Source: an uncultured Sulfitobacter sp.
Lineage (GTDB): Bacteria; Pseudomonadota; Alphaproteobacteria; Rhodobacterales; Rhodobacteraceae
Assembly: GCA_938003685.1 (NCBI GenBank)
Contig: CALKXT010000185.1
Coordinates: 1 to 41,819 of the forward strand
Length of the DNA stretch: 41,819 nucleotides
Direction: 5' to 3'
Both the position numbers and the translations under genes were made by a program. Positions 2,483 to 19,156 of this stretch are shown here, in pieces; positions within the stretch are counted from its first letter, which is position 1; every line of letters begins with the position of its first letter. Under the pieces are notes generated by a model. It searched no databases. It was not told where the DNA came from and was given only the letters and a program-made list of their open reading frames with translations.

Positions 2483-4324
2483 ATGGATCCGCAGGAAAAC
2501 TTGCGTCATGTGCGCAAGGCCAAGTCGAATTTCAATCTTAATCCAGCCGAAAGCCTGATGGTCTATGCGATGAATGCGGGCTGCTATGGCACGCGCGCAA
2601 AGCTACTTAAAAGGTTAGAAGGCGATTTGCAGGCGGCCATCGCCGTCGAATTGGCAACGATCCCAATCTATCTATACACTTATTATTCAATCAACCGCAC
2701 CGTGGCGTCTGGTCGTGAACTTACAGATACTGCCGGTTTTGCAAATGAGGCAGGTGCGGTCATCATGTCGGTCGCTGTCGAAGAAATGCTGCACATGTCC
2801 TTGTCCAGCAACATTTATTTTGCGCTGACCGGCACACCACCACAGCTTTATATGAATGCGCCCGCTACATACCCGACAATGCTGCCGCATCATAATCCGG
2901 TTGGCCCCCCCGGCCCCAAAGGTGGCGTTGATACGCATATTCCGCTCAAAGGTCTTAGCTTTGAACAGCTGTGGCACTTCCTTCAGATTGAATACCCACA
3001 AGGTCCCATTGCTGGGATCATGGACGCGATTGAACCGTTCATCCCGGATTTCAACTGGATCGAAGAAAACGCCCCCGGGTTACTGCCAGAGGAATTGGGC
3101 AAAATCCTGCATGGTGTTGGTTGGCCATCGGATGACAATTGGAATTCGATTGGTCAGTTCTATTCATTCATTCGCTGTATGATCGCCTCAGAACTCATCA
3201 CCGAAGCTGACTTTCAAACGGGAGCTGCTGCGCAGCAAATCCAGCCTTACAACTACTCACCCAATAACGTCGATACGATCTATCCCAATGCGCCGTTCAA
3301 CAAAAAGGCACCTGCCCCTGATCCAGACGCAAAATCCAGCGGATGCCCGACGTTACCACACGCGGCAGAGGTTGCCGTCTATACCAATGAACCCGACAGC
3401 CATTCAGGCGACCAAAAGGATGATTGGAAAGACGACGAAGAATTGATCACCGTATCCTCCAAGAAAGGCGCGATGATGGCGCTGCTGACCATCTGCGAAC
3501 AAGGGGAAGGGTATAAGGACGCGATGGGCGCAGAAAACAACGACACTGACCCTGTTGAAAACGGCGGTGACGGTCCTGCAGGAACGCGCAATTACGAACC
3601 CGAAGAAAGCCATTTCTTTAAGTTCCTACGCCTGCAAGCACAGTTCAAAGACTACGATAAACATGTCGAGCAATTGCCCGTTTGGATGGCAGGTGAAATT
3701 GCCGAGATGGAGATCGAAGAAGTCCTAGAGGGGCAATACGCCAAACGCACGGCGGTGGACTTGATCAAGGGCGGTTATGTCTATGACTTCCCGGACAGCC
3801 CCACCAGCACGCAATATCCTGCGGCCTATGCGGCGATCAACGATTTCAACAGTGGTCTGTTCCAATACATGTTGGTGCTGTCTGAAACCATCTATCTCGT
3901 CAAACCCGGCATGACAGGACCGGGTGGCAAAGTTCATAATCAGCAGCAGTTCTTTAATGCTGCCCTGCATCGGTCGATGATTTGGGTAATGGATAAATGG
4001 ATTCTAATGATGCGTGGGCTGCCTGTGGCAACCGATGGACCGTTCAAAGGGAAAACACTTGCGCCGACGTTCGAAAACCTAAGCCTTGGCACCCGCGAAG
4101 AGTCTTTTGAAAAACTCAAAGTTCTGGGCAAACGTGCGGTGGCCGCCGCCAATACGATTGGACAGGGTAAAGCCGCAGGCGAATTGGTCGACAAGGCCAT
4201 CAGCCTGATGAGCCCGGATGGGCTGCACGAAATGCACCTGCCCAATGTAAAAGACCACTGGAGCGGTAATGCCCCCATTGACCCGAGCACGTCTGCTCAT
4301 CCAAAATCCGTTGCGGCAGAGTGA
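2483..4324 (+). CDS. Ferritin-like domain protein (VioB/RebD iminophenyl-pyruvate dimer synthase-like family)
   Basis: A 613-residue soluble protein with no signal peptide. Residues about 41-260 resemble the ferritin-like domain of the VioB/RebD type. A first helix carries VELATIPIYLYTYYSI (E56) and a later helix carries AVEEMLHM (E101, H104), the pattern expected for carboxylate/histidine metal ligands. A central acidic linker (about 295-330, DSHSGDQKDDWKDDEE) leads to a second helical half with EESHFFKFLRLQ and AEMEIEEVLEG. Related proteins include oxidative enzymes acting on indole-imine substrates, but many family members have no known reaction. It is the first gene of a cassette: the next start is 12 bases after its stop. 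In this context a role as an accessory oxidase or iron supply for the Cys-rich protein is inference only. Domain call good, function unknown. Confidence 0.75.
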   Translation: MDPQENLRHVRKAKSNFNLNPAESLMVYAMNAGCYGTRAKLLKRLEGDLQAAIAVELATIPIYLYTYYSINRTVASGRELTDTAGFANEAGAVIMSVAVEEMLHMSLSSNIYFALTGTPPQLYMNAPATYPTMLPHHNPVGPPGPKGGVDTHIPLKGLSFEQLWHFLQIEYPQGPIAGIMDAIEPFIPDFNWIEENAPGLLPEELGKILHGVGWPSDDNWNSIGQFYSFIRCMIASELITEADFQTGAAAQQIQPYNYSPNNVDTIYPNAPFNKKAPAPDPDAKSSGCPTLPHAAEVAVYTNEPDSHSGDQKDDWKDDEELITVSSKKGAMMALLTICEQGEGYKDAMGAENNDTDPVENGGDGPAGTRNYEPEESHFFKFLRLQAQFKDYDKHVEQLPVWMAGEIAEMEIEEVLEGQYAKRTAVDLIKGGYVYDFPDSPTSTQYPAAYAAINDFNSGLFQYMLVLSETIYLVKPGMTGPGGKVHNQQQFFNAALHRSMIWVMDKWILMMRGLPVATDGPFKGKTLAPTFENLSLGTREESFEKLKVLGKRAVAAANTIGQGKAAGELVDKAISLMSPDGLHEMHLPNVKDHWSGNAPIDPSTSAHPKSVAAE

Positions 4325-4336
4325 AGGGAAAAAGCT

Positions 4337-4906
4337 ATGAGCACTCAAAATACATCACCGAAAAAAGCCATTGTTCCCTCTTTTAATCCAGCAGGTTTCA
4401 CACGTGTGGCGGTTGCGGGCGAGGAACTTCATGCATGCCTCGGACTGAACAATTGCGCAGGTCAGGATCGTTATGGCAAAGATGGCGCGCCGGGATTTGA
4501 ACCAAATTCCTGCGCCGGACAGGGTTATTGTGCAACCACGCAGATGCACAGCTGTCACACCAACAACAACTGCGCCAATCAGGGTGGTTGTGGGCTTTAT
4601 GGATCAGAGGACGAATTGGGTCGACCGGGCCAAAACGCCTGCCGATCTATGGGGTCCTGTGCGACACCCATCAACGCAGAACGCTTTATCACCACTGGCG
4701 GCTTGCGCGGCACCAGCGTTTGGGCGCGGGCACGTAAAGTGTTCAAAGAGGCCTATGAAAACGGAGGCGGCACTGTCAAAGCCCAGCCAGATAGCTTTCC
4801 CCACGGCCCCACAGCTGAATGGATCAACGACGTCCCATCCGGCAGTTGCACAACCTATGCGGCCTGCGGGTCTAGCGGCATGTCCGGTGGGGGTAGCTGT
4901 GGATGA
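4337..4906 (+). CDS. Cys-rich protein with repeated C-x5-C motifs, putative MNIO substrate/precursor
   Basis: A 189-residue protein with 12 cysteines. Eleven fall in six C-x5-C units: C34/C40, C59/C65, C73/C79, C79/C85, C102/C108 and C171/C177. The last, C188, sits in a Gly/Ser-rich tail one residue from the end. Several units share a look (CLGLNNC, CAGQGYC, CANQGGC, CRSMGSC), like the Cys-rich repeats of bufferin/HvfA-type peptides encoded beside MNIO enzymes. A Cys-free middle (109-170) holds the ATPINAERF and SVWARARKVFKEAYE stretches. There is no Sec signal peptide, unlike classical bufferins, so it is predicted to be cytosolic. The ribosome-binding site AAGGGA is well placed, and the stop overlaps the MNIO gene's start (ATGA). 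I infer it is the ribosomally made substrate of the neighbouring enzymes; the modification and any bound metal are unknown. Confidence 0.75.
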   Translation: MSTQNTSPKKAIVPSFNPAGFTRVAVAGEELHACLGLNNCAGQDRYGKDGAPGFEPNSCAGQGYCATTQMHSCHTNNNCANQGGCGLYGSEDELGRPGQNACRSMGSCATPINAERFITTGGLRGTSVWARARKVFKEAYENGGGTVKAQPDSFPHGPTAEWINDVPSGSCTTYAACGSSGMSGGGSCG

Positions 4907-5850
4907 TGCCAACTGACATCGCCGCGCTGCCTAAGCTTGGTCTGGGGCTTGGGCTGCGCAACACGCATTTTGAACACATCTTGCAGGCGTGGCCAAAGGT
5001 CGATTGGTTCGAAGCGATTTCAGAAAACTTCATGGATTCCGGGGGCCGTCCCCGCGATGTGATCCGCAAGGTCGCTGATCGCTATCCTGTTGTATTGCAT
5101 GGTGTCTCGATGTCCATCGGCAGCACAGATCCGCTAGACATGTCGTATCTGGCGCGGCTCAAGGCGTTGGCGGCTGAGGTACAGCCGCAGTGGGTTAGTG
5201 ATCATCTGTGTTGGACCGGGGTCATGGGGTTAAATTCCCATGACCTGTTACCCGTTCCGTTGAACGAAGAAACGCTGGCCCATATCGTGGCGCGAATACA
5301 CAAAGTTCAGGAATTTCTGGGCCGCCCGCTGATCCTTGAAAACCCATCAACCTATTTGGAGTTTCAAGACAGCACCATGTCGGAACCTGATTTCCTGCGC
5401 GCGATGTCTGAACAGACGGGGTGTGGGTTACTGCTTGATGTCAACAATGTCTATGTGACCTGCTATAATGCGTCGAGTGACCCGGTTGCCTACCTTGATG
5501 CCTTCCCTTGGGATCGCGTTGTGCAGATGCATCTGGCGGGTCATACGGATTGCGGCACACATATCATTGACACGCATGATCAACCTGTGCGTCCAGAAGT
5601 TTGGGAACTATACGCTACCGCATGGAAACACAGCAATGGTGCCTCAACCTTGTTAGAATGGGATGGCAATATTCCGTCATTCGATGATTGCCACGCTGAA
5701 CTTCTCAAGGCGCGCGCCTATATGGATGGGGGTGAATTCAAACGATCGACAGGTCGACCATTCGCCGCCGTACGCTCAGGTGTATCAAACCCTGTCAGCT
5801 TCCTTGTGCCAAGCGTTATGGATGCGGCAATCGCGTCTGAGCAAAGTTGA
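4903..5850 (+). CDS. MNIO-family (DUF692) multinuclear iron-dependent oxidase
   Basis: A 315-residue TIM-barrel enzyme of the MbnB/TglH/ChrH/BufB family, which uses two or three iron ions and O2 to modify cysteine or other residues in peptides. Family motifs appear in order: LHGVSMSIG (H66), SDHLCW (D100, H101), LENPSTYLEF (E146), LLLDVNNVYV (D179, N181), MHLAGHT (H210, H214), IDTHDQPV (D223, H225) and LLEWDGNIP (E252). All expected metal-binding positions therefore seem present and the enzyme should be active. It overlaps the Cys-rich gene upstream and the DUF2063 gene downstream, so translational coupling is likely. The start could be either of two adjacent ATGs (4903 or 4906). Family assignment is firm; the substrate is inferred to be the 4337-4906 product. 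Confidence 0.9.
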   Translation: MMPTDIAALPKLGLGLGLRNTHFEHILQAWPKVDWFEAISENFMDSGGRPRDVIRKVADRYPVVLHGVSMSIGSTDPLDMSYLARLKALAAEVQPQWVSDHLCWTGVMGLNSHDLLPVPLNEETLAHIVARIHKVQEFLGRPLILENPSTYLEFQDSTMSEPDFLRAMSEQTGCGLLLDVNNVYVTCYNASSDPVAYLDAFPWDRVVQMHLAGHTDCGTHIIDTHDQPVRPEVWELYATAWKHSNGASTLLEWDGNIPSFDDCHAELLKARAYMDGGEFKRSTGRPFAAVRSGVSNPVSFLVPSVMDAAIASEQS

Positions 5851-5852
5851 AC

Positions 5853-6668
5853 ATGGCCGAACCGCTATCTGACTTGCAAAAATGGATGCACAGCGCACTT
5901 TTGCGTCCCGGCACAGCCCGCGCAAAAGACACCGCAGCGCGGCTTGTGCCAAATCCACGGCTATCCGCAGAGGACGCATTGGCTATCTATCAACGTAGCT
6001 ATAGCCTGCGCATTGCAGCCTGCATGCGCGAACAGTTCCCTGCGCTGTGCCACGCGCTGGGTGAAGAATTGTTCAATGATTTCGTTGCTGATTACGTGCG
6101 TGACGCCCCACCCGAGAGTTATACTCTTTATGATCTGGGTCGACGCTTTGCAGGTTTTCTTGAGGCTAACCGACCGGACCGCGATGAGGAGGTCAAAGAA
6201 AGCTGGATTGATTTCATAGTTGATATGGCGCGATTTGAGCGCAACGTGTTCTCAACCTTTGACTGCCCCGGCGCTGAGGGTTTGACCCTCGCACCCCTCG
6301 ATACTCCGGATCATCAGTTAAAAGCGCAACCCAGCCTGTCAATCGGCGCGTATCGCTTTCCAGTTGCATGGTACTACCACCAAGTCCGCGAGAACAACGC
6401 GCCTCAACCGCCATTAGAACAACCAACCTATGTCGCCATTGTGCGTAAAGAGTTTCAAACAACCACAGCAATGGTCACACATCCACATTTTGAATTTTTA
6501 AGCGCGATGTGCGCAGGTTCTAGCGTAGGCCACGCTTTATCCACCACCGCACAAAGCCTAGGGCGCGATATATCGCAGGTTACTGCAGCATGGCAGGAAA
6601 CCGATGGCGTTCGCTCAAATTGGATACAAGCGGGTTTCTTTGTGGTTGATCATACAGCGACGAAGTGA
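5853..6668 (+). CDS. DUF2063 protein (BufC/HvfC/MbnC-like MNIO partner)
   Basis: A 271-residue partner protein. Residues about 5-100 match the DUF2063 (HvfC/BufC N-terminal) pattern: LQKWMHSALL, then AIYQRSYSLRIAACMREQFP, ALGEELFNDFVADYV, and SYTLYDLGRRFAGFLEA. In related systems this protein forms a complex with the MNIO enzyme and recognises the peptide leader. The C-terminal part (about 110-271) fits the usual size of the second domain. I use ATG 5853; a TTG at 5847 would give a 4-base overlap with the upstream stop and is possible. It ends three bases before the convergent LysR gene, closing the cassette. No transporter or export gene is present in the cassette. Family call firm, exact role inferred. 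Confidence 0.85.
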   Translation: MAEPLSDLQKWMHSALLRPGTARAKDTAARLVPNPRLSAEDALAIYQRSYSLRIAACMREQFPALCHALGEELFNDFVADYVRDAPPESYTLYDLGRRFAGFLEANRPDRDEEVKESWIDFIVDMARFERNVFSTFDCPGAEGLTLAPLDTPDHQLKAQPSLSIGAYRFPVAWYYHQVRENNAPQPPLEQPTYVAIVRKEFQTTTAMVTHPHFEFLSAMCAGSSVGHALSTTAQSLGRDISQVTAAWQETDGVRSNWIQAGFFVVDHTATK

Positions 6669-8363: not shown

Positions 8364-10433
8364 ATGAACGCCCAAGCACCCAGCCCAAACTCCCCCTTTC
8401 ACAAAGGTGAGCAAGAGGCCCAAACCCGCGCTGGCAAACGTGAACAGGCAGAAGTGATGGGTCAACGGATGATACGGCCCTTTATGCCCGATCAGCATCG
8501 CGCATTCTTTGAACAAATTCCGTTCATTGTCGCAGGCAGTGTCGATGATCAAGGTTGGCCCTGGGCGTCGATCCTGACTGGTGGAGCAGGCTTTATCACC
8601 TCCCCAGATGATCGCGAACTTCATTTTAACGCACGACCATTGGCGGATGATCCATTGTTTAGCGCGATGGTGCCAGGCGCACCTCTAGGGTTGCTCGGGA
8701 TTGAAATAGCCACGCGCCGGCGAAATCGGGTGAATGCCACAGTTACCGACACTTCAAGTCAAGGTACGTCTCTGACTGTCACACAATCCTTTGGCAATTG
8801 CCCACAATATATTCAAACCCGTGAAATTCGCTTTGTGCGTGCGCCCAATTCGCCAGCGGATTGCGGCGGGACGGACCACTTCACTACGCTGGATGACGCG
8901 GCCCAGACCTTTATTGCACAGGCCGATACGTTCTTTGTGTCGAGCTATGTGAACACAGCGACCAATCCCGTGGCCGAAGGTGTCGATGTCTCGCACCGTG
9001 GTGGGCGCGCTGGTTTTGTGCAGGTCAAAGGCAACACCCTAACCATACCTGATTTCGCAGGAAACAACGCCTTTAACACCATTGGCAATTTCATAGTGAA
9101 CCCAAAGGCTGGCTTGATTTTTCCTGATTTCACCACGGGCGATGTGCTGATGCTGACCGGCAGGGTCGAAATGTTGTGGGAAGACGATCCAGATGTGATC
9201 GCCTTCAAAGGGGCTGAACGCGCATGGCGCTTTACGCTAGATCACGGCATCCGTATGTATGACGCCCTGCCTTTTCGCGCTGATTTCCGGGAATGGTCCC
9301 CCAATAGCTTGATGGCAGACGATTGGGACACGGCACAGGCGCGTCAACAGGGTGAACAGCAACGCACTATTTGGCGGCCTCTGCGCGTTACAGCGATCGA
9401 TGATGAAAGCAGCGTGATCCGGTCTTTTAGTTTTGAGGCAACAGATGACGCACCTTTGCACAGCTTTGAGGCTGGGCAATTTTTGACCATCCGGGTCGCA
9501 CCTAAAGGGGCCGCGCCCAGAACCCGCACCTACACGTTGTCTTCAGCACCGGGGGACGCAGGGTATCGTATTTCAGTAAAACGCGAACCGGGTGGCATCG
9601 TTTCCAACCACCTGCACGATACACTCGAAATCGGTGACATGATTGAAGCAAAGGCCCCAATTGGTGCGTTTCATCTTGATGCTTTAGAAAAACGCCCCGC
9701 TGTTTTGTTTGCTGCTGGGGTTGGGATAACCCCCATGATGTCTATGACCCGACATGTCCTGAACGAAGGTATCCGCAAACGCTATACCCGGCCTCTAACG
9801 GTCTTTCATTCAGCGCGAACCACCGATGAGCGCGCGTTTTACAATGAGTTTCGCACAGCCGAACGAGTGAGCGATGGCAAAATTCGCTACGTCTCATTGA
9901 TAGGGATCCCACAAGAAAAAGATGCTCTCGGCAAGGATTTTGACGCCCAAGGATATATCACCGCTGACCTACTACGCAGCACCTTGCCCTTTGACGATTA
10001 CGATTTTTTTCTCTGTGGGCCAGCAAAATTCATGCAGTCCGTCTATAATGTATTGCGCGACCTTGGCGCAGCAGATGCACGGATTTTTGCCGAAAGCTTT
10101 GGTCCTGCCGCTTTAAAGCGGCGAGCGGATGCAAAGGCTGCATTGATAGAACCTGAACCAGAGGCGGACAGCGCCGCGATTAATTTCGTGGCTTCAGGTT
10201 TCGAGCAGCATTGGCAACATGGCGATGGTACATTGCTAGAAACAGCCGAAGCGCACGGACTTACACCTTCATTCTCTTGTCGCAGTGGCACCTGCGGTAG
10301 CTGCATCACCAAAAAACTGTCCGGCGACGTTGCCTATCGCACGCCTGTCACGGCCAATCATGGGGCCGATGAGGTTTTAATCTGCTGCGCTGTTCCTGCC
10401 AAAGGGACCGACACGTTGGTTCTTGACCTGTGA
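8364..10433 (+). CDS. Pyridoxamine-phosphate-oxidase-like / ferredoxin reductase / [2Fe-2S] ferredoxin fusion protein
   Basis: A 689-residue three-part protein. Residues about 40-310 form a PNPOx-like split-barrel flavin domain (PFIVAGSVDDQGWPWASILTG). Residues about 340-580 are an FAD/NAD(P)H ferredoxin-reductase module: RTRTYTLSS for FAD and VLFAAGVGITPMMSM for nucleotide, ending near FLCGPAKFMQSV. Residues about 600-689 are a plant-type [2Fe-2S] domain with C639-x4-C644-x2-C647 and a distal C674/C675. The order suggests electron flow from NAD(P)H through FAD and FeS to a flavin or substrate bound in the first domain. It lies 70 bases after the GST gene and probably shares its LysR control. 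The substrate is unknown; nitro-compound or quinone reduction is only speculation. Confidence 0.85.
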   Translation: MNAQAPSPNSPFHKGEQEAQTRAGKREQAEVMGQRMIRPFMPDQHRAFFEQIPFIVAGSVDDQGWPWASILTGGAGFITSPDDRELHFNARPLADDPLFSAMVPGAPLGLLGIEIATRRRNRVNATVTDTSSQGTSLTVTQSFGNCPQYIQTREIRFVRAPNSPADCGGTDHFTTLDDAAQTFIAQADTFFVSSYVNTATNPVAEGVDVSHRGGRAGFVQVKGNTLTIPDFAGNNAFNTIGNFIVNPKAGLIFPDFTTGDVLMLTGRVEMLWEDDPDVIAFKGAERAWRFTLDHGIRMYDALPFRADFREWSPNSLMADDWDTAQARQQGEQQRTIWRPLRVTAIDDESSVIRSFSFEATDDAPLHSFEAGQFLTIRVAPKGAAPRTRTYTLSSAPGDAGYRISVKREPGGIVSNHLHDTLEIGDMIEAKAPIGAFHLDALEKRPAVLFAAGVGITPMMSMTRHVLNEGIRKRYTRPLTVFHSARTTDERAFYNEFRTAERVSDGKIRYVSLIGIPQEKDALGKDFDAQGYITADLLRSTLPFDDYDFFLCGPAKFMQSVYNVLRDLGAADARIFAESFGPAALKRRADAKAALIEPEPEADSAAINFVASGFEQHWQHGDGTLLETAEAHGLTPSFSCRSGTCGSCITKKLSGDVAYRTPVTANHGADEVLICCAVPAKGTDTLVLDL

Positions 10434-10442
10434 AAACTATAA

Positions 10443-10473
10443 TCGCACCACCTTTTGCGTGACGGTGGTGCGA
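10443..10473 (+). terminator. Hairpin after the fusion gene
   Basis: TCGCACCACC (10443-10452) pairs perfectly with GGTGGTGCGA (10464-10473) across an 11-base loop, starting 10 bases after the stop codon. Only a short T-rich stretch follows (TTTG), so terminator strength is uncertain. Confidence 0.5.
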
Positions 10474-10545
10474 CGATTTGAATGTTTGCGTTATGTTGGG
10501 GCTGGCAAAACAATCGGAAATACCCCAAATACAGTCGAAATGCTT

Positions 10546-10574
10546 GTACACCGTTGTGTACCGTGATTGATCAC
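10546..10574. promoter_or_regulatory. Two adjacent inverted repeats upstream of malate synthase
   Basis: GTACAC-CGTT-GTGTAC (10546-10561) and GTGAT-TG-ATCAC (10563-10574) are both perfect and lie 33-61 bp before the glcB start. They are candidate regulator sites; the regulator is not identified. Confidence 0.4.
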
Positions 10575-10606
10575 ACCAAGCACGATCGTATCGATAGGAG
10601 AGACCA

Positions 10607-12775
10607 ATGACATCCAGCCCAACGCACTCGGAGCGCGGCGACCGCGCAGACCTCAGCGTTTCTACTGAACTGCTCGCGTTTATTGAGCAAGAAGCGCTGG
10701 CTGGAACTGAGATCGAAGCAGATGCATTTTGGGCTGGGCTTGCTGATCTCATACATGATTTTGGCCCCAAAAATCGCGATCTTCTTGATAAACGCGCAGC
10801 ATTACAGACGGCGATTGACACGTGGCACAAAGACCGTCGCGGTCAAGCTCATGATCCTGTCGCCTATAAATCATTTCTATCTGAAATCGGCTATTTGCTG
10901 CCTGAAGGGGGCGATTTTGAGATCGATACCACAAATGTCGATCCAGAAATCGCAACTATCGCTGGCCCACAGCTTGTTGTGCCCAGCACCAATGCCCGCT
11001 TTGTTCTGAACGCGGCGAATGCACGTTGGGGCAGCTTATATGACGGGTTCTATGGCACTGACGCAATGGGTACGCCAGCACCAGCTGGGCCTTTTGATGC
11101 AGGACGCGGTTCTCGCGTTGTGGCCCGTGCAGCCGTATTTCTGGACGAAGCTTTTGCGCTTGAAGGCACAAGCCATGGCAAGGCGACACACTACAGCGTC
11201 AAAGATGGCATTCTGGTCGTTGATGGATCTGGCTTGATCCAGCCTGAGAAATTCATCGCCTATCGCGGTGATGCAGATAGCCCAGACGCAATCCTACTGC
11301 GCAACAATGGTCTGCATGCTGAATTGGTTTTCAACCGCAATCATCCGATTGGCAAAACAACACCATCCGGGTTGGCAGATGTCTTGCTTGAATCCGCAGT
11401 GTCCGCCATCGTCGATCTGGAAGATTCCGTTGCCTGTGTGGATGCAGAGGACAAAGTCACAGCCTATCGCAATTGGCTGGGTCTGATGAAAAGCGACCTG
11501 TCAGAGACCTTTGAAAAGGGTGGTAAGTCGATGACCCGCGCCCTTAACCCGGATCGCGCGTACATCTCGGCAAATGGCGATGATATGTCCATAAAGGGTC
11601 GCGCGTTGTTGTTGGTGCGCAATGTTGGGCATTTGATGACCAACCCGGCGATCTTGGATCGTGACGGCAATGAAGCCCCCGAAGGCTTAATGGACGCAAT
11701 GATCACGGCAATGATCGCCATACATGATCTGAAAAAGACAGATGGCATGCGCAATTCGGTCAATGGGTCGGTTTACGTGGTAAAACCAAAGATGCACGGC
11801 CCAGAAGAAGTCGCCTTTTCTGACGCCATATTTACCCATGTTGAAAAGGTATTGGGACTGCCTGCCAACACAGTCAAACTGGGGATTATGGACGAAGAGC
11901 GCCGCACTTCGGTGAACCTCAAGGAATGTATCCGCGCAGCCAAAAGCCGGGTTTGTTTCATCAACACTGGCTTTCTGGATCGCACGGGTGATGAAATCCA
12001 CACCTCGATGGAGGCGGGTCCGTTTAGCCGCAAAGATTTCATCAAACGCAAAGGCTGGATTACAGCCTACGAAAACCAGAACGTCGATATCGGGTTGGAA
12101 TGTGGCCTGTCAGGCAAGGCTCAAATCGGCAAAGGCATGTGGGCGATTCCGGACCGTATGGGTGCGATGATTGATACCAAGATTGAGCATCCAAAAGCTG
12201 GTGCAAATTGTGCTTGGGTCCCTAGCCCAACGGCCGCCACGCTGCACGCCTTGCACTATCACAAGGTTGATGTCTTTGCAGTTCAACAGCAAATCGCCAA
12301 GGGTGGCCGGCGCGCCTATGTTGAGGCACTGCTCGATATTCCTGTCGCAGAATACCGTCGCTGGGACAAAGGCCAGATCCGGCGCGAGGTCGAAAACAAC
12401 GCACAAGGTATCCTTGGTTATGTGGTACGCTGGATTGACCAAGGTGTTGGCTGTTCCAAGGTGCCGGACGTGAACGATGTGGGGTTGATGGAAGACCGCG
12501 CCACATGCCGGATTTCTGCACAACACGTTGCGAACTGGTTGCACCATAACATCGTCAGCAAAGATGAGGTCGTCGCAATTATGCGCCAAATGGCTGAAGT
12601 TGTTGACCGCCAAAACGTGTCAGACCCGGCGTATCAACCAATGGCACCGGATTTTGACGGCATCGCCTATAAAGCGGCCTGTGATTTGGTGTTTAATGGC
12701 ACCAAAGATCCCTCTGGCTATACAGAACCAACGCTTCACGCACGACGCTTGGAACTCAAGGCGCTTCAGCACTGA
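10607..12775 (+). CDS. glcB: Malate synthase G
   Basis: A 722-residue cytosolic enzyme that condenses glyoxylate with acetyl-CoA to give malate. The length matches the monomeric G isoform (about 720) rather than the shorter A isoform. Characteristic stretches include [21 protein letters not shown] near residue 130, a central barrel with [16 protein letters not shown], and [14 protein letters not shown] with its acid/arginine active-site residues. [33 protein letters not shown] follows near 520-555 (quoted in pieces: [32 protein letters not shown]). The start at 10607 has a clear GGAGAG site. It stands alone with a terminator behind it. The nearby allE and bhc genes make or use glyoxylate, which places this gene as one of two glyoxylate sinks. 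Confidence 0.95.
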
Positions 12776-12810
12776 ACCCACAGATATTGATCAAAGACTA
12801 CCATAGAGTG

Positions 12811-12840
12811 AGCCCCGCCTTCAAAGGCGGGGCTTTTCTT
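12811..12840 (+). terminator. Rho-independent terminator of glcB
   Basis: AGCCCCGCC (12811-12819) pairs with GGCGGGGCT (12826-12834) around a 6-base loop and is followed by a T-run (TTTTCTT). It starts 36 bases after the glcB stop. Confidence 0.85.
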
Positions 12841-12933
12841 AAATAAAACCAATAGCATCCTGCCTCATTATCAAAAAAAGACGAAGGCTTTTGTTCGCTT
12901 GATCACAGTGGCATTTTGTCATTGGCCTGCGCA

Positions 12934-12947
12934 TATTGGTACCAATA
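12934..12947. promoter_or_regulatory. Perfect palindrome upstream of allE
   Basis: TATTGGTACCAATA is a perfect 14-bp palindrome that ends 21 bases before the allE start. The TTGGTACCAA core resembles sites used by FadR-type GntR regulators (TGGT...ACCA). No GntR gene is in the window. Operator function is inferred. Confidence 0.5.
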
Positions 12948-12968
12948 CAGATCAGGTTAGGAACGCTT

Positions 12969-13799
12969 ATGTCTGCCAGCTATTACGCCCCAACAGGTGG
13001 CCACCCGGGTCAGGACCAACTGCTAACAGACCGCGCCGTGTTTACGGATTCTTATGCAGTGATCCCCAAGGGCACCATGCGCGATATCGTAACGAGTTTC
13101 CTACCGTTCTGGGACAAGACGCGCCTGTGGGTCATTGCGCGCCCAATGAGTGGCTTTGCCGAAACATTTTCGCAATACATCATGGAAGTTGCCCCCGGTG
13201 GTGGGTCAGAGCGCACCGAAACCGATCCAGCAGCGCAGGGCGTACTGTTCGTAGTAGAAGGCACAGCGACACTGAACGTAAACGGTGAAACCCATGAATT
13301 GATCCCCGGCGGTTATGCCTATTTACCACCAAATTCGGGGTGGACCCTACACAACAAGTCCGACGAAATGCTCCGCTTTCATTGGATAAGAAAAGCCTAT
13401 CAGGCCGTTGAGGGCCTTGATGTCCCAGATGTCCTGATCCTAAACGAAAAGGACATTGCGCCCACATTGATGCCCGGCACGCAAGGTAAGTGGGGCACAA
13501 CGCGCTTTGTTGATCCTGACGACTTGCGCCATGACATGCATGTCACGATTGTGACGTTCGAACCTGGCGGGGTGATCCCCTTTCTGGAAACCCATGTGAT
13601 GGAACACGGGTTGTATGTTTTGGAAGGCAAAGCCGCCTACCGCCTCAATCAAGATTGGGTTGAAGTCGAGGCCGGCGACTATATGTGGCTGCGCGCGTTT
13701 TGCCCGCAAGCATGTTACGCAGGTGGCCCCGGAAAATTCCGCTATTTGCTGTACAAAGACGTGAACCGCCACATGCCACTGCGCCCGCTTGGCGCTTAG
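12969..13799 (+). CDS. allE: (S)-ureidoglycine aminohydrolase, bicupin
   Basis: A 276-residue enzyme that removes ammonia from (S)-ureidoglycine to give (S)-ureidoglycolate, late in purine-ring degradation. Two cupin domains are visible: the first with VEGTATLNVNGETHELIPGG, the second with ETHVMEHGLYVLEGKA. In the second, E207, H209, H213 and Q247 reproduce the E-x-H-x3-H...Q spacing of the Mn ligands of the E. coli enzyme (40 residues from Glu to Gln). I start at ATG 12969, preceded by AGGTTAGGA; an upstream in-frame GTG at 12936 would begin inside the palindrome. It ends 4 bases inside the convergent bhcR gene. It sits 17 kb from the other purine genes but beside the glyoxylate-using genes, matching its place just before glyoxylate release. 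Confidence 0.92.
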   Translation: MSASYYAPTGGHPGQDQLLTDRAVFTDSYAVIPKGTMRDIVTSFLPFWDKTRLWVIARPMSGFAETFSQYIMEVAPGGGSERTETDPAAQGVLFVVEGTATLNVNGETHELIPGGYAYLPPNSGWTLHNKSDEMLRFHWIRKAYQAVEGLDVPDVLILNEKDIAPTLMPGTQGKWGTTRFVDPDDLRHDMHVTIVTFEPGGVIPFLETHVMEHGLYVLEGKAAYRLNQDWVEVEAGDYMWLRAFCPQACYAGGPGKFRYLLYKDVNRHMPLRPLGA

Positions 13800-14644
13800 C
13801 GCGCGACGGATTTTGGTGCGCCACCAATGGCGGATGTGAGGTCATTGGCGGCTGCGACCACTGATTTACTGAACTGTTCGATCTGATCTGTTCCAACACG
13901 CGATGTTGGGCCAGAAACCGAAATACCTGCAACGGCCTCTGCGTTGATGTCGAACACTGGGGCCGCAATGCAGCGCATCCCGATATTGCGCTCTTCACCA
14001 TCAATCGCATAGCCCCGCGTGCGGGTGGTAGATAAATCAGCCTTTAACGCGCCTTGGCTGGTCAGCGTGAATTCGGTGAATTCCTCTAATGTTGCATCTG
14101 ACAGCAGCCTCTCAATCCGCACCTCATCCATTTCGGCCAGCAGTGCTTTGCCGATACCAGATGCATGCATCTGCGACAGCGTGCCGGGTGGAAAAAACGC
14201 ACGTATGCTAGAATTGGTTTCAACCTGACTGACAAACAAAACATGACCGTTCTGTTCGATGCCAAGGTTTGCGGTTTCGCCCGTATCCTCCATCAATCGG
14301 CGCAGAATTGGACGCGCGCGCTCGACCAGACTTGTGCGTTTTAGAAAGCGCGCACCGATGATAAAAGCGCGTGGACCAACATGCCAAACCTGATCAAACT
14401 GGTCAAACTCGACCAAGCCGCGCCCCTCAAGAGTCACGAGAATACGATAGATCGTTGCGGGTGACTGGTCCAATTCGGACGCCAAGGTGGAAAGTGTCTT
14501 ACCTTGCCCCTCGCTCAAGAATTCAAAAACCGCCATCGCACGGTCCAGCGATTTGATGGTATTTTGTGCGGTTTTGTCGTTCCAATCACGTGGCCTACCA
14601 CGTGATTTTCGCGTGCTTTGATTCGGATTGTTTTGAGAATTCAT
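13796..14644 (-). CDS. bhcR: IclR-family regulator of the beta-hydroxyaspartate cycle
   Basis: A 282-residue IclR-type regulator. A basic, Arg/Ser-rich N-terminus (RKSRGRPRDW) precedes the winged helix at about 30-90 (LSTLASELDQSPATIYRIL). The effector domain follows, with FPPGTLSQMHASGIGKALLA and GYAIDGEERNIGMRCIAAPV. It is divergent from bhcA, the arrangement described for Paracoccus denitrificans, where BhcR senses glyoxylate. The start is uncertain: ATG 14644 and ATG 14653 both lack a clear Shine-Dalgarno, and a TTG at 14695 is in frame. I chose 14644 because the longer options run through the likely operator. Family certain, bhcR assignment strong from context. Confidence 0.9.
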   Translation of the reverse strand: MNSQNNPNQSTRKSRGRPRDWNDKTAQNTIKSLDRAMAVFEFLSEGQGKTLSTLASELDQSPATIYRILVTLEGRGLVEFDQFDQVWHVGPRAFIIGARFLKRTSLVERARPILRRLMEDTGETANLGIEQNGHVLFVSQVETNSSIRAFFPPGTLSQMHASGIGKALLAEMDEVRIERLLSDATLEEFTEFTLTSQGALKADLSTTRTRGYAIDGEERNIGMRCIAAPVFDINAEAVAGISVSGPTSRVGTDQIEQFSKSVVAAANDLTSAIGGAPKSVAR

Positions 14645-14662
14645 AATATGCATTTCATTTAT

Positions 14663-14679
14663 GTGAAAGACGATTTCAC
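14663..14679. promoter_or_regulatory. Candidate BhcR operator 1
   Basis: GTGAAA-GACGA-TTTCAC is a perfect 17-bp interrupted palindrome, 19 bp upstream of the bhcR start. It lies inside a longer imperfect repeat that begins and ends with TGCATTT/AAATGCA (14649-14694). This size and half-site style suit an IclR-family dimer. Confidence 0.5.
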
Positions 14680-14734
14680 CATATGAAAAATGCAACTCTT
14701 TGACAACAATTGATTTTTATCCCGCCATCAAAAA

Positions 14735-14749
14735 TGAAAAATGTTTTCA
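14735..14749. promoter_or_regulatory. Candidate BhcR operator 2 in the bhcA promoter
   Basis: TGAAAA-ATG-TTTTCA is a perfect inverted repeat sharing the TGAAA/TTTCA half-site with operator 1. A TATACT at 14756-14761 could be the bhcA -10 box, which would put this repeat over the -35 region. Inference only. Confidence 0.4.
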
Positions 14750-14811
14750 AAAAAATATACTGGAATGATTTGAATATCTAGATTGGCCTTAACTTCTTCA
14801 AGGAGATCGCC

Positions 14812-15987
14812 ATGAGCTTTCAAAACCCCGTATTCATTCCCGGCCCCACAAATATGCCAGAGGCGGTGCGTCTTGCTTGTCACATGCCTACTATTGATCA
14901 CCGTTCCCCGACTTTTGGCAAGATTTTGCACCCATGCCTTGATGGGGTAAGACAGGTTCTGAAATCAAACAGCGCCCATATCTTTATCTTTCCCTCCACG
15001 GGTACTGGCGGTTGGGAAACAACGCTGACCAATACTCTGTCAAAAGGTGACAAGGTTCTTGCAGCACGTAATGGCATGTTCAGTCACCGTTGGATCGACA
15101 TGTGTCAACGCCATGGTTTAGACGTTCACATCATCGAAACGCCTTGGGGGCAAGGTCTGCCTGCGGACCAGTACCAAGACGTGTTGAAGGCAGACACCAA
15201 CCACGAGATAAAAGCGGTTTTGGCCACCCATAACGAAACCGCAACGGGCGTGAAATCCGATATCGCTGCGGTGCGCGCCGCATTGGACGCGGCAGATCAC
15301 CCTGCCCTGCTGTTTGTAGATGGGGTCAGTTCCATCGCATCAATGGATTTTCGGTTTGATGAATGGGGCGTAGATGTTGCTGTGACGGGCAGCCAAAAGG
15401 GTTTCATGTTGCCTGCTGGCCTTGCCATCGTTGGCTTTTCGGACAAGGCCGTTGCCGCAACCGAAACCGCTGATCTGCCGCGCACGTTCTTTGACATCCG
15501 CGACATGCAAAAGGGCTACGCGGCCAACGCGTTCCCCTACACCCCACCTGTAGGGTTGATGAATGGCCTGAAAACGTCGTTGGAAATGTTGCTAGACGAA
15601 GGCATCGACAACGTCATTGCCCGCCATACCCGCATCGCAACAGGCGTGCGTTTGGCTGTCAAAGCATGGGGGCTCGACCTGTGTGCCGCCTCGCCGGATG
15701 TTTATTCAGACACTGTTTCCGCAATCTGCACACCCGATGGGTTCAACGCCACCGACATCGTGACGCATGCAGATGAGGTTTACGGCGTCGCCTTTGGTGT
15801 GGGCCTTGGGGAGGTTGCAGGCAAAGTGTTTCGCATTGGACACCTCGGCAGTCTGACAGACGTGATGATGCTAAGCGGTTTGGCGACGGCGGAAATGTGT
15901 ATGGTAGATTTGGGTATGGGTGTAAAACTGGGCTCGGGTGTTGCCGCCGCCCAAGAATACTACCGCACCAATCCAGCGACGAAATAA
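14812..15987 (+). CDS. bhcA: L-aspartate--glyoxylate aminotransferase
   Basis: A 391-residue PLP enzyme (class V, alanine-glyoxylate aminotransferase fold). It transfers the amino group of aspartate to glyoxylate, giving glycine and oxaloacetate, and so starts each turn of the beta-hydroxyaspartate cycle. Visible motifs are the N-terminal FIPGPTNMPEAVR, FPSTGTGGWETTLTN, LATHNETATGV, VDGVSSIASMDFRFDEWGVD and VTGSQKGFMLPAG, whose lysine should bind PLP. A GGAG site lies 6 bases before the ATG. It opens a plus-strand run of eight tightly spaced genes and is divergent from bhcR, so transcription is expected to respond to glyoxylate. The neighbours bhcB, C and D in canonical order make the call firm. 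Confidence 0.95.
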   Translation: MSFQNPVFIPGPTNMPEAVRLACHMPTIDHRSPTFGKILHPCLDGVRQVLKSNSAHIFIFPSTGTGGWETTLTNTLSKGDKVLAARNGMFSHRWIDMCQRHGLDVHIIETPWGQGLPADQYQDVLKADTNHEIKAVLATHNETATGVKSDIAAVRAALDAADHPALLFVDGVSSIASMDFRFDEWGVDVAVTGSQKGFMLPAGLAIVGFSDKAVAATETADLPRTFFDIRDMQKGYAANAFPYTPPVGLMNGLKTSLEMLLDEGIDNVIARHTRIATGVRLAVKAWGLDLCAASPDVYSDTVSAICTPDGFNATDIVTHADEVYGVAFGVGLGEVAGKVFRIGHLGSLTDVMMLSGLATAEMCMVDLGMGVKLGSGVAAAQEYYRTNPATK

Positions 15988-15997
15988 GGGGTACGAC

Positions 15998-16963
15998 ATG
16001 TATATACCAACGTATCAAGACATGCTGGACGCACACGCGCGCATTGAGCCTCATATCATTCGCACCCCAGTACGCACGTCCGATTACCTGAACGAGTTAA
16101 CGGGTGCTGAGCTATTCTTTAAGTGTGAGAATTTTCAGACACCCGGCGCCTTTAAAGTGCGCGGTGCCAGCAATGCGGTGTTTGGGTTAAGCGATGAACA
16201 GGCCAAGCTAGGCGTGGCGACACATTCATCGGGCAATCACGCCTCTTGCCTCAGTTACGCCGCCAACCTGCGCGGCATTCCGTGTAACGTAGTGATGCCA
16301 ACGACTGCCCCTCAGGCAAAGAAAGATACTGTGGCGCGCTATGGTGGTGTGATCACCGAATGTGAACCCTCTACGACATCACGCGAAGAAACATTCGCCA
16401 AAGTACAGGCCGCAACGGGGGGTGATTTTGTACATCCCTACAATGATCCGCGTGTTATCGCCGGGCAAGGCACTTGCGCGCGTGAATTCATGGAACAGAC
16501 TGACGGTTTGGATGTTGTAATGGCTCCTATCGGCGGTGGTGGCATGATTTCAGGCACGTGTTTGACCCTTTCAAATCAAGCACCTGAAACGCAGATCATT
16601 GCAGCAGAGCCAGAACAAGCAGATGACGCCTATCGTAGCTTTAAGGCCGGCTACATCATCGCAGATGATGCCCCCAAGACCATTGCAGATGGTCTGCTTG
16701 TGCCGCTCAAAGATCTGACATGGCATTTCGTGTCCAACCACGTAAGCGATATCCTCACCGCGTCCGAAGATGAGATCATCAACGCGATGAAACTGACGTG
16801 GAAGCACCTTCGCGTGGTGATGGAGGCAAGTTCATCCGTCCCCCTCGCGACAATTTTGAAAAACAAAGAACGGTTCGCTGGCAAACGTGTCGGCATCATC
16901 ATCACAGGCGGCAATGTCGATCTTGACCAACTGCCATGGCTCACACAAAGGGAAGCACAATGA
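15998..16963 (+). CDS. bhcB: erythro-beta-hydroxyaspartate dehydratase
   Basis: A 321-residue PLP enzyme of the threonine/serine dehydratase family. In this pathway it converts (2R,3S)-beta-hydroxyaspartate to iminosuccinate. The motif FQTPGAFKVRGASNAV holds the PLP lysine, HSSGNHASCLSYAA binds substrate, and APIGGGGMISGTCL is the phosphate-binding glycine loop; IITGGNVDL closes the fold. I start at ATG 15998, preceded by AAGGGG at 15985-15990; the longer in-frame extension overlaps bhcA and is not family-like. Its stop overlaps the bhcC start by four bases (ATGA). By sequence alone it could be a threonine or serine dehydratase or a racemase; position between bhcA and bhcC decides. Confidence 0.93.
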   Translation: MYIPTYQDMLDAHARIEPHIIRTPVRTSDYLNELTGAELFFKCENFQTPGAFKVRGASNAVFGLSDEQAKLGVATHSSGNHASCLSYAANLRGIPCNVVMPTTAPQAKKDTVARYGGVITECEPSTTSREETFAKVQAATGGDFVHPYNDPRVIAGQGTCAREFMEQTDGLDVVMAPIGGGGMISGTCLTLSNQAPETQIIAAEPEQADDAYRSFKAGYIIADDAPKTIADGLLVPLKDLTWHFVSNHVSDILTASEDEIINAMKLTWKHLRVVMEASSSVPLATILKNKERFAGKRVGIIITGGNVDLDQLPWLTQREAQ

Positions 16964-18123
16964 ACACGCACGTAAACCTCGATGACTTTGACGTTGGTTT
17001 TGACATTCCTGCCAAGCCCGGCATGGATGAGGCAGACATTCAGACACCTTGCCTGATCCTTGATCTGGACGCGCTTGAGCGTAACGTCAAGAAAATGGGC
17101 GACTATGCAAAAGCCAATGGGATGCGTCACCGCGCCCACGGCAAAATGCATAAATCCGTTGATGTGTTGAAGCTCCAGCAGGACATGGGTGCCGCGATTG
17201 GGGTCTGTTGTCAGAAAGTTTCTGAGGCCGAAGTATTCGCGCGCGGCGGCATCAAAGATGTGATGGTATCCAACCAAGTAACCGAACCAGCCAAGATCAA
17301 ACGCCTTGCAGAAATGCCAAAATTTGGCTGTCGGGTTCTGGTTTGTGTGGACGATCCTGAAAACGTCAAAGCACTTTCAGAGGCGGCTGTAGCGGCGGGC
17401 ACACAGATCGAAGCCTTGGTCGAGATCGACTGTGGCGCGGGACGTTGTGGCGTGAACACCACGCAGGATGTCGTGAACATTGCCAAGTTGATTGACGCCG
17501 CTGATGGCCTGAAGTTCGCAGGCATCCAAGCCTATCAAGGCGCGATGCAGCACATGGACCTTTATGCAGACCGCAAGGTCAAACTAGACGCGGCAATCGC
17601 GCAGGTGGGCGATGCGGTTACTGGTCTAAAAAGCAATGGTTTGGACTGTGACATCGTCGGCGGCGGCGGCACCGGCTCTTATTACTTTGAGACAGCGTCA
17701 GGTGTTTATAACGAACTACAATGTGGATCTTATGCTTTCATGGACGCGGATTATGGTCGTATCTTGGATGAAAATGGCAAACGTATTGATGATGGTGAAT
17801 GGGAGAACGCGTTGTTCCTGCTCACCACTGTGATGAGCCATTCCAAGGCAGATAAAGCCATCGTTGATGCAGGCCTCAAAGCACAATCTGTCGATAGTGG
17901 TTTGCCGTTTATCTATGGCCGTAATGACGTTGAATACCTCAAATGTTCGGACGAACACGGTGTGGTTGGCGATCCAGATGGCGTTCTAAAAGTGAACGAC
18001 AAACTCAAGCTTGTACCGGGTCACTGCGATCCAACTTGCAATGTACACGACTGGTATGTCGGTGTTCGCAACGGCAAGGTCGAAACAGTTTGGCCGGTAT
18101 CGGCACGCGGCAAAGCCTACTAA
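16960..18123 (+). CDS. bhcC: beta-hydroxyaspartate aldolase
   Basis: A 387-residue PLP- and metal-dependent aldolase of the D-threonine aldolase/DSD1 family (fold type III barrel). It joins glycine and glyoxylate to (2R,3S)-beta-hydroxyaspartate. The N-terminal DIQTPCLILDLDALERNVKK and RHRAHGKMHKS hold the PLP lysine. The central IDCGAGRCGVN and IVGGGGTGSYYF stretches bind the phosphate, and the C-terminal PGHCDPTCNVHDWYVGVRNG carries the likely metal-binding His and Cys. I use ATG 16960, which overlaps the bhcB stop and has GGGAAG upstream; a start at 16936 would add nine residues. Canonical third gene of the Bhc set. Confidence 0.94.
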   Translation: MNTHVNLDDFDVGFDIPAKPGMDEADIQTPCLILDLDALERNVKKMGDYAKANGMRHRAHGKMHKSVDVLKLQQDMGAAIGVCCQKVSEAEVFARGGIKDVMVSNQVTEPAKIKRLAEMPKFGCRVLVCVDDPENVKALSEAAVAAGTQIEALVEIDCGAGRCGVNTTQDVVNIAKLIDAADGLKFAGIQAYQGAMQHMDLYADRKVKLDAAIAQVGDAVTGLKSNGLDCDIVGGGGTGSYYFETASGVYNELQCGSYAFMDADYGRILDENGKRIDDGEWENALFLLTTVMSHSKADKAIVDAGLKAQSVDSGLPFIYGRNDVEYLKCSDEHGVVGDPDGVLKVNDKLKLVPGHCDPTCNVHDWYVGVRNGKVETVWPVSARGKAY

Positions 18124-18130
18124 TGCCTCT

Positions 18131-18165
18131 GCCCATACCCGCCTCTTTGAAGCGTGGGTATGGGC
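18131..18165 (+). other. Intercistronic hairpin between bhcC and bhcD
   Basis: GCCCATACCC (18131-18140) pairs perfectly with GGGTATGGGC (18156-18165) around a 15-base loop. It lies in the only sizeable gap of the operon (67 bases), 7 bases after the bhcC stop. There is no T-run, so it is more likely an mRNA-stability or attenuation element than a full terminator. Confidence 0.6.
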
Positions 18166-18190
18166 ACCTAATATCCAAAGGAATTCCCCC

Positions 18191-19156
18191 ATGTTGATCG
18201 TCCCAGAACGCGAAATTGCCGCCCTCATGACACGCGAAGCCGCCTTTGATGCCGTCGAAAGCGTCTTTGCCGCAATGGCATCAAAAGACGCGTACAACTT
18301 TCCAGTCATCCGCGAAGCGATTGGCCATGAAGACGCTCTATATGGGTTTAAGGGTGGGTTTGATCAGACAGGCATGACACTGGGCCTCAAGGCCGGTGGT
18401 TATTGGCCAAACAACCTTGAAAAACACGGACATATCAATCACCAGTCCACAATTTTCCTGTTTGATCCAGACACAGGTATGGTCAGCGCCATGGTGGGAG
18501 GTAACCTTTTGACCGCCCTGCGCACAGCGGCTGCATCCTCCGTTTCAATCAAACACCTGGCCCGCAAAGACGCCAAAGTCATGGGCATGGTAGGTGCTGG
18601 CCATCAGGCGACTTTCCAATTGCGCGCCGCCCTTGAACAGCGCCAGTTCGAGAAAGTTATTGGCTGGAATTACCACCCCGAAATGCTGCCCAATATCGAA
18701 AAGATTGCCAATGAAGCAGGCTTGCCGTTCGAAGCCGTTGAGCTTGAGGGTATGGGTGAGGCGGATGTCGTCATCTCGATCACCTCAACATTTTCCCCCA
18801 CCATCATGGCCGATCACATTGCGCCGGGTACCCACATCGCTTGCATGGGCACGGACACCAAAGGCAAACAAGAGGTCGAGGCCGCTTTGCTAGCAAAATC
18901 CACCGTTTTCACTGACGAAGTTGCCCAGTCCATCAGCATCGGTGAGGCACAACATGCGGTCGGTTCTGGCTTGATTCAGGAAAGCGACGTGCATCAACTG
19001 GGTTCTGTGATCAATGGCATGCACAAAGGCCGCACGTCAGATGCCGAGATCACATTGTTTGATGGCACTGGCGTTGGCCTCCAAGACCTTGCTGTCGCCG
19101 CAAGCGTTGTTGAGCTGGCGGTCAAAAATGGCGTTGCGATTGAGGTCGACTTTTAA
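18191..19156 (+). CDS. bhcD: Iminosuccinate reductase
   Basis: A 321-residue member of the ornithine cyclodeaminase/mu-crystallin family. In the cycle it reduces iminosuccinate to L-aspartate with NAD(P)H, regenerating the amino donor for BhcA. The N-terminal half has YGFKGGFDQTGMTLGLKAGGYW and GGNLLTALRTAAASSVS. The Rossmann core is MGMVGAGHQATFQLRAAL, followed by GEADVVISITSTFSP and ACMGTDTKGKQEVEA. The chosen start (ATG 18191) has AAAGGAATT upstream and gives the family N-terminus; the longer open frame back to 18011 runs through the hairpin and bhcC and is rejected. Its stop shares one base with the next gene's start. Confidence 0.93.
   Translation: MLIVPEREIAALMTREAAFDAVESVFAAMASKDAYNFPVIREAIGHEDALYGFKGGFDQTGMTLGLKAGGYWPNNLEKHGHINHQSTIFLFDPDTGMVSAMVGGNLLTALRTAAASSVSIKHLARKDAKVMGMVGAGHQATFQLRAALEQRQFEKVIGWNYHPEMLPNIEKIANEAGLPFEAVELEGMGEADVVISITSTFSPTIMADHIAPGTHIACMGTDTKGKQEVEAALLAKSTVFTDEVAQSISIGEAQHAVGSGLIQESDVHQLGSVINGMHKGRTSDAEITLFDGTGVGLQDLAVAASVVELAVKNGVAIEVDF

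Follow-up and report, generated by a model that had tools for sequence, protein, structure and literature searches.

The ferritin-like/MNIO cassette

The stretch of DNA analysed here, called the window below, is a contig of 41,819 nucleotides (CALKXT010000185.1, assembly GCA_938003685.1) from an uncultured Sulfitobacter sp. of the Rhodobacteraceae. Four of its genes, all on the plus strand, encode a ferritin-like protein, a Cys-rich protein, an MNIO enzyme and a DUF2063 partner. The first gene (2483..4324) specifies 613 residues that match Pfam PF12902 (Ferritin-like) with 105.4 bits (cut-off 22.3). The second (4337..4906) specifies 189 residues, including 12 Cys, and is presumed to encode the MNIO substrate; its product has no match in Pfam (at E<=1) or NCBIfam, but sequence comparison and profile alignment outline a conserved Cys-rich core at 4415..4747, on the same strand, with a BufA2-like stretch (SCAGQGYCATT..HSCHTNNNCANQG). 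A PHROGs search with the ferritin-like and Cys-rich proteins gave no match. The third gene (4903..5850; 315 residues) encodes an MNIO enzyme of the bufferin-maturase type, with 360.1 bits for Pfam PF05114 (cut-off 25), 356.4 bits for NCBIfam MNIO_BufB (cut-off 310) and an E-value of 2.3e-44 against PDB 3bww. It is the single MNIO detected in the window's assembly, which is 84.6% complete. The fourth gene ends at 6668 and starts with TTG at 5847 or with ATG at 5853, giving 273 or 271 residues; the product is a DUF2063 protein (PME type 1) scoring 65.2 bits for Pfam PF09836 (cut-off 27.2) and 19.7 bits, under the cut-off of 27, for the RRE-type domain NGO1945_C, with no match at E<=0.1 in a PDB search.

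These open reading frames (ORFs) and family matches bear out the first-pass annotation of this DNA, which had described four genuine genes in this order, with an MNIO-DUF2063 pair beside a Cys-rich and a ferritin-like protein. Its statement that starts and stops overlap holds for the Cys-rich and MNIO genes, which share ATGA, but not for the ferritin-like and Cys-rich genes, which lie 12 nucleotides apart. Similarly, the label 'VioB/RebD-type' proposed for the ferritin-like protein is correct only as regards membership of PF12902, a domain carried by VioB; NCBIfam, whose library was not checked for a VioB model, gave no match at E<=1.

The first two genes are in the same frame, interrupted by one TGA and the 12-nucleotide spacer (4322..4336, plus strand). 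An AGGGA at 4325-4329 lies 7 nucleotides ahead of the ATG of the Cys-rich gene, an arrangement that fits two coupled, separately started proteins. We searched every ORF of at least 60 residues in 18 loci with profiles made from the cassette proteins. The cassette was present in 14 of them, invariably in the order [ferritin-like, Cys-rich]-MNIO-DUF2063. In 11 of these 14 loci (G184, G544, G694, G1068, G835, G1252, G1179, G1218, G1157 and two Pseudoalteromonas records, L019 and L020, that are near-copies of each other), the ferritin-like and Cys-rich parts constitute a single ORF of 658-775 residues as called. The split form is found in the other three, namely the window and two closely similar loci from Paenihalocynthiibacter styelae (L003) and Thalassobius sp. 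I31.1 (L004), where a scan of a genome collection with the ferritin-like protein detected the same four genes. Some of the 14 loci had seeded the profiles but L033-L038 had not, and their ferritin-like parts were matched with E-values of 4.7e-61 or better. Pfam recognised PF12902 in 10/10 fused proteins scanned (L020 stood outside the scan) as well as in L003, and DUF2063 in 10/10 further partners scanned, besides those of the window and L003; the MNIO exceeded the BufB cut-off in 6/6 cassettes scanned. As for the remaining loci, L018 and L021 gave an MNIO and a DUF2063 match and none for the ferritin-like protein, L039 contains nothing but a small bufferin-like ORF, and L040 lacks all four genes.

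The gene order is thus conserved in Rhodobacterales and beyond, which the first-pass annotation had named as its own test. The four-gene cassette that it described does exist in the window, L003 and L004, but is a minority form, the three-gene form being common. Since the ferritin-like and Cys-rich parts are one polypeptide in 11/14 loci, the former is probably the body of the substrate rather than an added tailoring enzyme, and the earlier view of an extra peptide-modification enzyme is not supported in that form. The Cys-rich part, in turn, is probably the tail of this body, fused to it in most relatives.

In an MNIO tree of 42 rows, from which the near-copies L004, L020 and L064 were left out, a single starred clade (100/94) unites the 12 non-redundant cassette MNIOs and spans several families and three classes. 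It contains two starred sub-clades, A with the window, L003, G184 and G544, and B with Pseudoalteromonas plus seven loci from the same class as the window. The window and L003 are sisters (100/97) within A, the split form being nested among fused ones. Fused proteins make up all eight rows of B and two of those of A, so that a single splitting event gives the simplest history; this is an argument of parsimony and no proof, the root of the tree not having been inferred. The fused three-gene form, which is the commonest, is probably ancestral and the four-gene split form derived. Moreover, distances between the ferritin-like parts correlate with those between the MNIOs (r 0.925, with 0/2000 permutations as high), as expected under joint inheritance.

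A Pfam search of 142 genomes belonging to the class detected MNIO genes in 54. As a control served 30 MNIO loci, 29 of them other than the window, with flanks of at most 1.5 kb, beyond which ferritin-like genes would be missed. Within this distance a ferritin-like match was seen in 1/29 alphaproteobacterial control loci, namely G835, already counted as a fused locus, and in 0/28 non-cassette MNIO loci; most of the small upstream ORFs examined look like bufferins. The order kept in 14/14 loci, the single MNIO clade and the 0/28 control loci together indicate more than a chance association.

Enzyme pair, Cys-rich tail and ferritin-like body

Comparison of the 12 cassette MNIOs with 28 control MNIOs, a set that also omits L018 (a copy of L054) and L063 (a long branch), revealed 21 invariant H/D/E/N/Q positions. 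Given this conservation, the cassette MNIO is probably an active enzyme. They include D223-T-H225, which fits the residue pair D242/H244 named for HvfB in the available text of PMC13419390, a match that is based on the motif rather than on an alignment with HvfB. The cassette has the features of an MNIO-PME1 system, i.e. an MNIO with conserved metal-site residues, a DUF2063 partner directly after it and a Cys-rich precursor gene before it. According to PMC12668002, 5-thiooxazoles are installed in every characterised MNIO-PME1 case; in characterised MNIO-DUF2063 systems these are formed on Cys and generally bind copper (PMC12668002 and PMC12452194, as far as their available text goes).

Six tails, from both types of cassette, have common motifs: H-x-C, C-x-x-x-N-x-C-x-x-x-G-G-C-G and N-x-C-x-x-x-G-x-C-A-x-P-I-x-A. 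With HHalign, the tail stretch SCAGQGYCATT..HSCHTNNNCANQG was aligned over 25 columns, at 93.8% probability, with the core of ten small BufA2-type ORFs, a set that includes L039, itself found with the Cys-rich profile. The tail thus resembles a BufA2 domain, to which it may be distantly related, possibly by descent from one. The extremities of the two types are distinct: the type B fused proteins (L016, L019, L033-L038) end in R[LV]xxPPST in 8/8 cases, far from any Cys, and the type A tails close with CGxSGxSGxGxC followed by a single residue. These C-terminal motifs could possibly act as recognition or assembly signals.

In the ferritin-like body, E56, E101, H104, E170 and E342 (window numbering) are identical in 12/12 sequences, and in all 12 a [DST]H[FY]xxF motif follows QGEG, corresponding to SHFFKF at 376-381 in the window. 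These five residues and the His of SHFFKF are likely metal ligands and probably hold a dinuclear iron site. The first four of them can be followed in a HMMER alignment with the solved structure 3hl1, another ferritin-like protein of PF12902 type, whose matched part also displays the pattern E, ExxH, E. However, this match is weak (E 0.0014), it contains no MNIO tail in the 317-residue chain, and the part with QGEG and the His appears in a non-significant segment only.

Concerning localization, we measured the highest 11-residue hydropathy within the first 60 residues. In the window it amounts to 1.50 for the ferritin-like protein and 0.91 for the Cys-rich protein, compared with 1.89-2.48 in 6 small bufferin controls. 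By hydropathy, neither of the window's two proteins has an apparent Sec-like start, in line with the first-pass remark that no Sec signal is visible.

Comparison with known systems places the cassette close to, but apart from, the Buf2/BufA2 operons (bufABC, part of the 'captophorins'). It shares with them an MNIO above the BufB cut-off, the order substrate-MNIO-DUF2063 and a BufA2-like tail core, whereas its substrate is a ferritin-like fusion of 658-775 residues, or the split form of it, has no apparent Sec signal and scores under the BufA2 cut-off. Bufferin fusions with cytochrome c, FGE-sulfatase, MerC and EF-hand have been reported (PMC12452194); they likewise join a bufferin-type domain to another metal-related domain, but the partners listed in the available text are not ferritin-like. 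The same text describes Adjamnio-I, whose signal-less precursors of 122-293 residues with 8 to 21 Cys go with PME type 2. The window's Cys-rich protein falls within this range of length and Cys number but, as judged by description only, the cassette differs in having a true DUF2063 partner.

A putative MNIO-matured metalloprotein and the alternatives

As a whole, these observations are best explained, in our moderately confident opinion, by a cassette that makes one MNIO-matured cytosolic metalloprotein. Its body, a ferritin-like protein of PF12902 type, would carry a complete complement of carboxylate and His ligands that probably hold two irons, and its tail would be a Cys-rich domain distantly related to BufA2. 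The DUF2063 protein would present the tail to the MNIO, which would convert some of the tail cysteines, most likely to 5-thiooxazoles. We consider it very likely that the MNIO substrate is the tail; the thiooxazoles could bind Cu(I) or another soft metal close to the iron site. In the fused form, body and tail would act as one chain, and in the window as two co-translated chains, presumably reassociating. The mature protein would serve cytosolic metal handling and redox homeostasis, a role that would fit the first-pass suggestion of a metal-storage or redox function in the cytosol and that we propose only tentatively and favour because the ten scanned neighbours, from six loci, have no common pathway.

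Several findings weigh against this explanation. The NCBIfam BufA2 model gave 16-19 bits in three of the six tails (18.9 at best) and no match in the tails of the window, L016 and L019, so that none of the six reached the cut-off of 60, compared with 79 and 93 bits for two small-ORF controls and 37 and 41 bits for two more distant ones. Since these scores are far under the cut-off, the tail is not a BufA2 member by the family test; in addition, the Lys that follows Cys in BufA2 is replaced by Ala in the window protein. In the body, the His motif lies 18-77 residues past QGEG and was left unaligned across the two types by MAFFT, and two structure predictions, with a mean predicted local distance difference test (pLDDT) score of 31, give no support to the iron site. 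As regards localization, two of the ten fused proteins measured, L015 and L033, show hydropathy values of 1.86 and 1.92 at the very start of their called ORFs, near the lowest bufferin control (1.89), although these ORFs have later Met starts that would abolish the high values. Finally, in the survey PMC12452194, as far as its available text shows, signal-less precursors go with type-2 partners and DUF2063 partners with signal-bearing precursors, contrary to the cassette, where precursors without apparent signal accompany true DUF2063 partners.

An alternative is that the MNIO matures an enzyme. The body would then be a diiron oxidase or synthase, and the tail, once modified, would provide it with a built-in metal site or electron relay instead of storing metal. 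The PF12902 match with its conserved ligands, the fusion of body and tail and their inheritance with the MNIO would suit such an enzyme, as would a PF12902 gene located near lodA-like quinoprotein oxidase genes in fungi (PMC4417212, in its accessible part). On the other hand, the ten neighbours from six loci belong to unrelated families or to none, hence no consistent pathway genes, and the body has no NCBIfam match; we thus regard this alternative as rather unlikely. The ferritin-like protein could also be a separate helper, an oxidase or iron donor whose target is either the Cys-rich substrate or the MNIO; its separate gene in the window, L003 and L004 would allow for such a role. This is improbable given its fusion to the substrate in 11/14 loci and the 28 non-cassette MNIO loci that manage without a ferritin-like gene.

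A hybrid lanthionine system, in which the APH, HopA1 and LanC-like genes beside the L003/L004 cassette also modify the Cys-rich protein, could be imagined from their position directly upstream on the same strand, with the LanC-like gene 122 nucleotides from the ferritin-like gene. However, the window's assembly (84.6% complete) has no LanC-like or HopA1 gene, none was among the ten neighbours scanned in the partly scanned flanks of six other loci, and the set comes with a small ORF of its own upstream that bears repeats, which makes this scenario very improbable. Chance neighbours without joint function would agree with the rarity of the cassette (1/60, 3/394 and 5/385 genomes in three draws), but the fusions and the single MNIO clade over several families and three classes argue strongly against them. 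As far as sequence allows, fusions and control loci rule this scenario out, and we give it hardly any credence.

The explanation by a single cytosolic metalloprotein suggests that the enzyme pair, which usually acts on the cysteines of copper-binding peptides, completes a large intracellular protein as well. The broader idea of the MNIO as maturase of a large cytosolic enzyme, with a thiooxazole site in the tail of a diiron protein, which would give a mixed iron/copper protein whose second metal centre arises post-translationally, instead of a secreted metal-binding peptide, remains speculative and somewhat doubtful. In the available text of PMC12452194, MNIO enzymes are proposed to modify proteins too, though they are known mostly from peptides. 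The natural fusions join a motif like those of MNIO substrates to a ferritin-like protein in distant bacteria, so that MNIO chemistry on a large metalloprotein can be tested directly with the cassette. In that text, moreover, DUF2063 partners are linked to signal-bearing substrates, a pattern that the cassette would break.

What is new is the ferritin-like/Cys-rich fusion in 11/14 loci, followed by MNIO and DUF2063 genes in 14/14. A literature search, limited to one library of papers without their supplements, found no description of an MNIO-DUF2063 set with a ferritin-like protein, in agreement with the first-pass opinion that the ferritin-like gene lies outside the described MNIO sets. No word starting with 'ferritin' occurs in the main text of the survey PMC12452194, and no paper among the matches listed for ribosomally synthesized and post-translationally modified peptides (RiPPs) contains both bufferin and ferritin-like. 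DUF692 appears together with ferritin in a Caulobacter copper transcriptome paper, and DUF2063 with ferritin-like in a Haemophilus sigma-factor paper; judging from the visible parts of these two papers, a mention of the set is possible there.

Distribution and neighbouring genes

The cassette is rare and scattered. The Cys-rich search found a match in 1/60 genomes of relatives, which was the window's own, and in none of the 35 same-genus genomes among them; further draws gave 3/394 genomes of the family, 5/385 of the window's own class, 5/398 of the phylum, 5/149 of the family of G694 and 1/78 of the class of G544, the latter being G544 itself. The window's own genome is part of these counts wherever it was drawn, as are four weak non-cassette matches; G356, from the family draw, has the same sequence as L003 and was counted once. 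With the tail of the G184 protein as query, 2/72,556 plasmid records matched, both from Pseudoalteromonas. The window's Cys-rich protein found no match among plasmids, and viral contigs contained no relative of the Cys-rich core.

The four weak matches were rejected as cassettes. G105 is a 91-residue frame, and inspection of the listed ORFs by eye showed no MNIO there; G482 is a small peptide of BufA2 type accompanied by an MNIO of its own. G892 is a bufferin-like ORF of 120 residues, with the other three genes absent from 12 kb and an MNIO on another contig, and G1006 a partial match with a stop and none of the four genes within 6.9 kb.

A search for an empty site found none: among 40 genus genomes, the own one included, the DeoR neighbour was present in 27 and the LysR neighbour in 3 (E<=1e-80). 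G013 is the only other genome with both, and they are far apart there. In L009 (G184, 10186-19142) the fused cassette stands between transposase genes of the IS110, DDE and DUF772 types, which fits horizontal spread. The gammaproteobacterial cassettes of L019 and L020 reside on very large second replicons (records of 1.2-1.3 Mb), and the next gene encodes a transmembrane-regulator-like protein that contains a Trans_reg_C domain.

The ten neighbour proteins scanned comprise RTX/cadherin proteins (two loci), MurJ, a tRNA synthetase, an amidohydrolase, a formyl transferase, a pyridine-nucleotide oxidoreductase, a response-regulator-type DNA-binding protein and two proteins without family. The lack of a pathway common to them suggests a self-contained function of the cassette. 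In L003 (2172-5842), and at the corresponding position in L004, the cassette adjoins a lanthipeptide set of class V type. This set consists of an 80-residue ORF with three C-x-x-V-x-F-T-A-x-C-type repeats, a putative lanthipeptide precursor, then the APH gene (LxmK-like, under cut-off), the HopA1 gene and the LanC-like gene; we treated it as an adjoining cluster of these two loci and not as part of the cassette.

In the window, about 950 bases 5' of the cassette (1536-2482) are without an evident intact gene, and a glycosyltransferase-4 remnant (E 1.2e-4, under cut-off) lies on the minus strand at 1763-2041. Promoter and terminator scans, with 6 against 4.0 and 9 against 7.0 expected hits, respectively, were uninformative. 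Further downstream, at 13796-19156, a row of genes encodes an IclR regulator, a class-V aminotransferase, a PALP enzyme, a D-serine-dehydratase-like aldolase and an ornithine-cyclodeaminase-like enzyme, an ensemble that resembles the beta-hydroxyaspartate cycle operon bhcRABCD.

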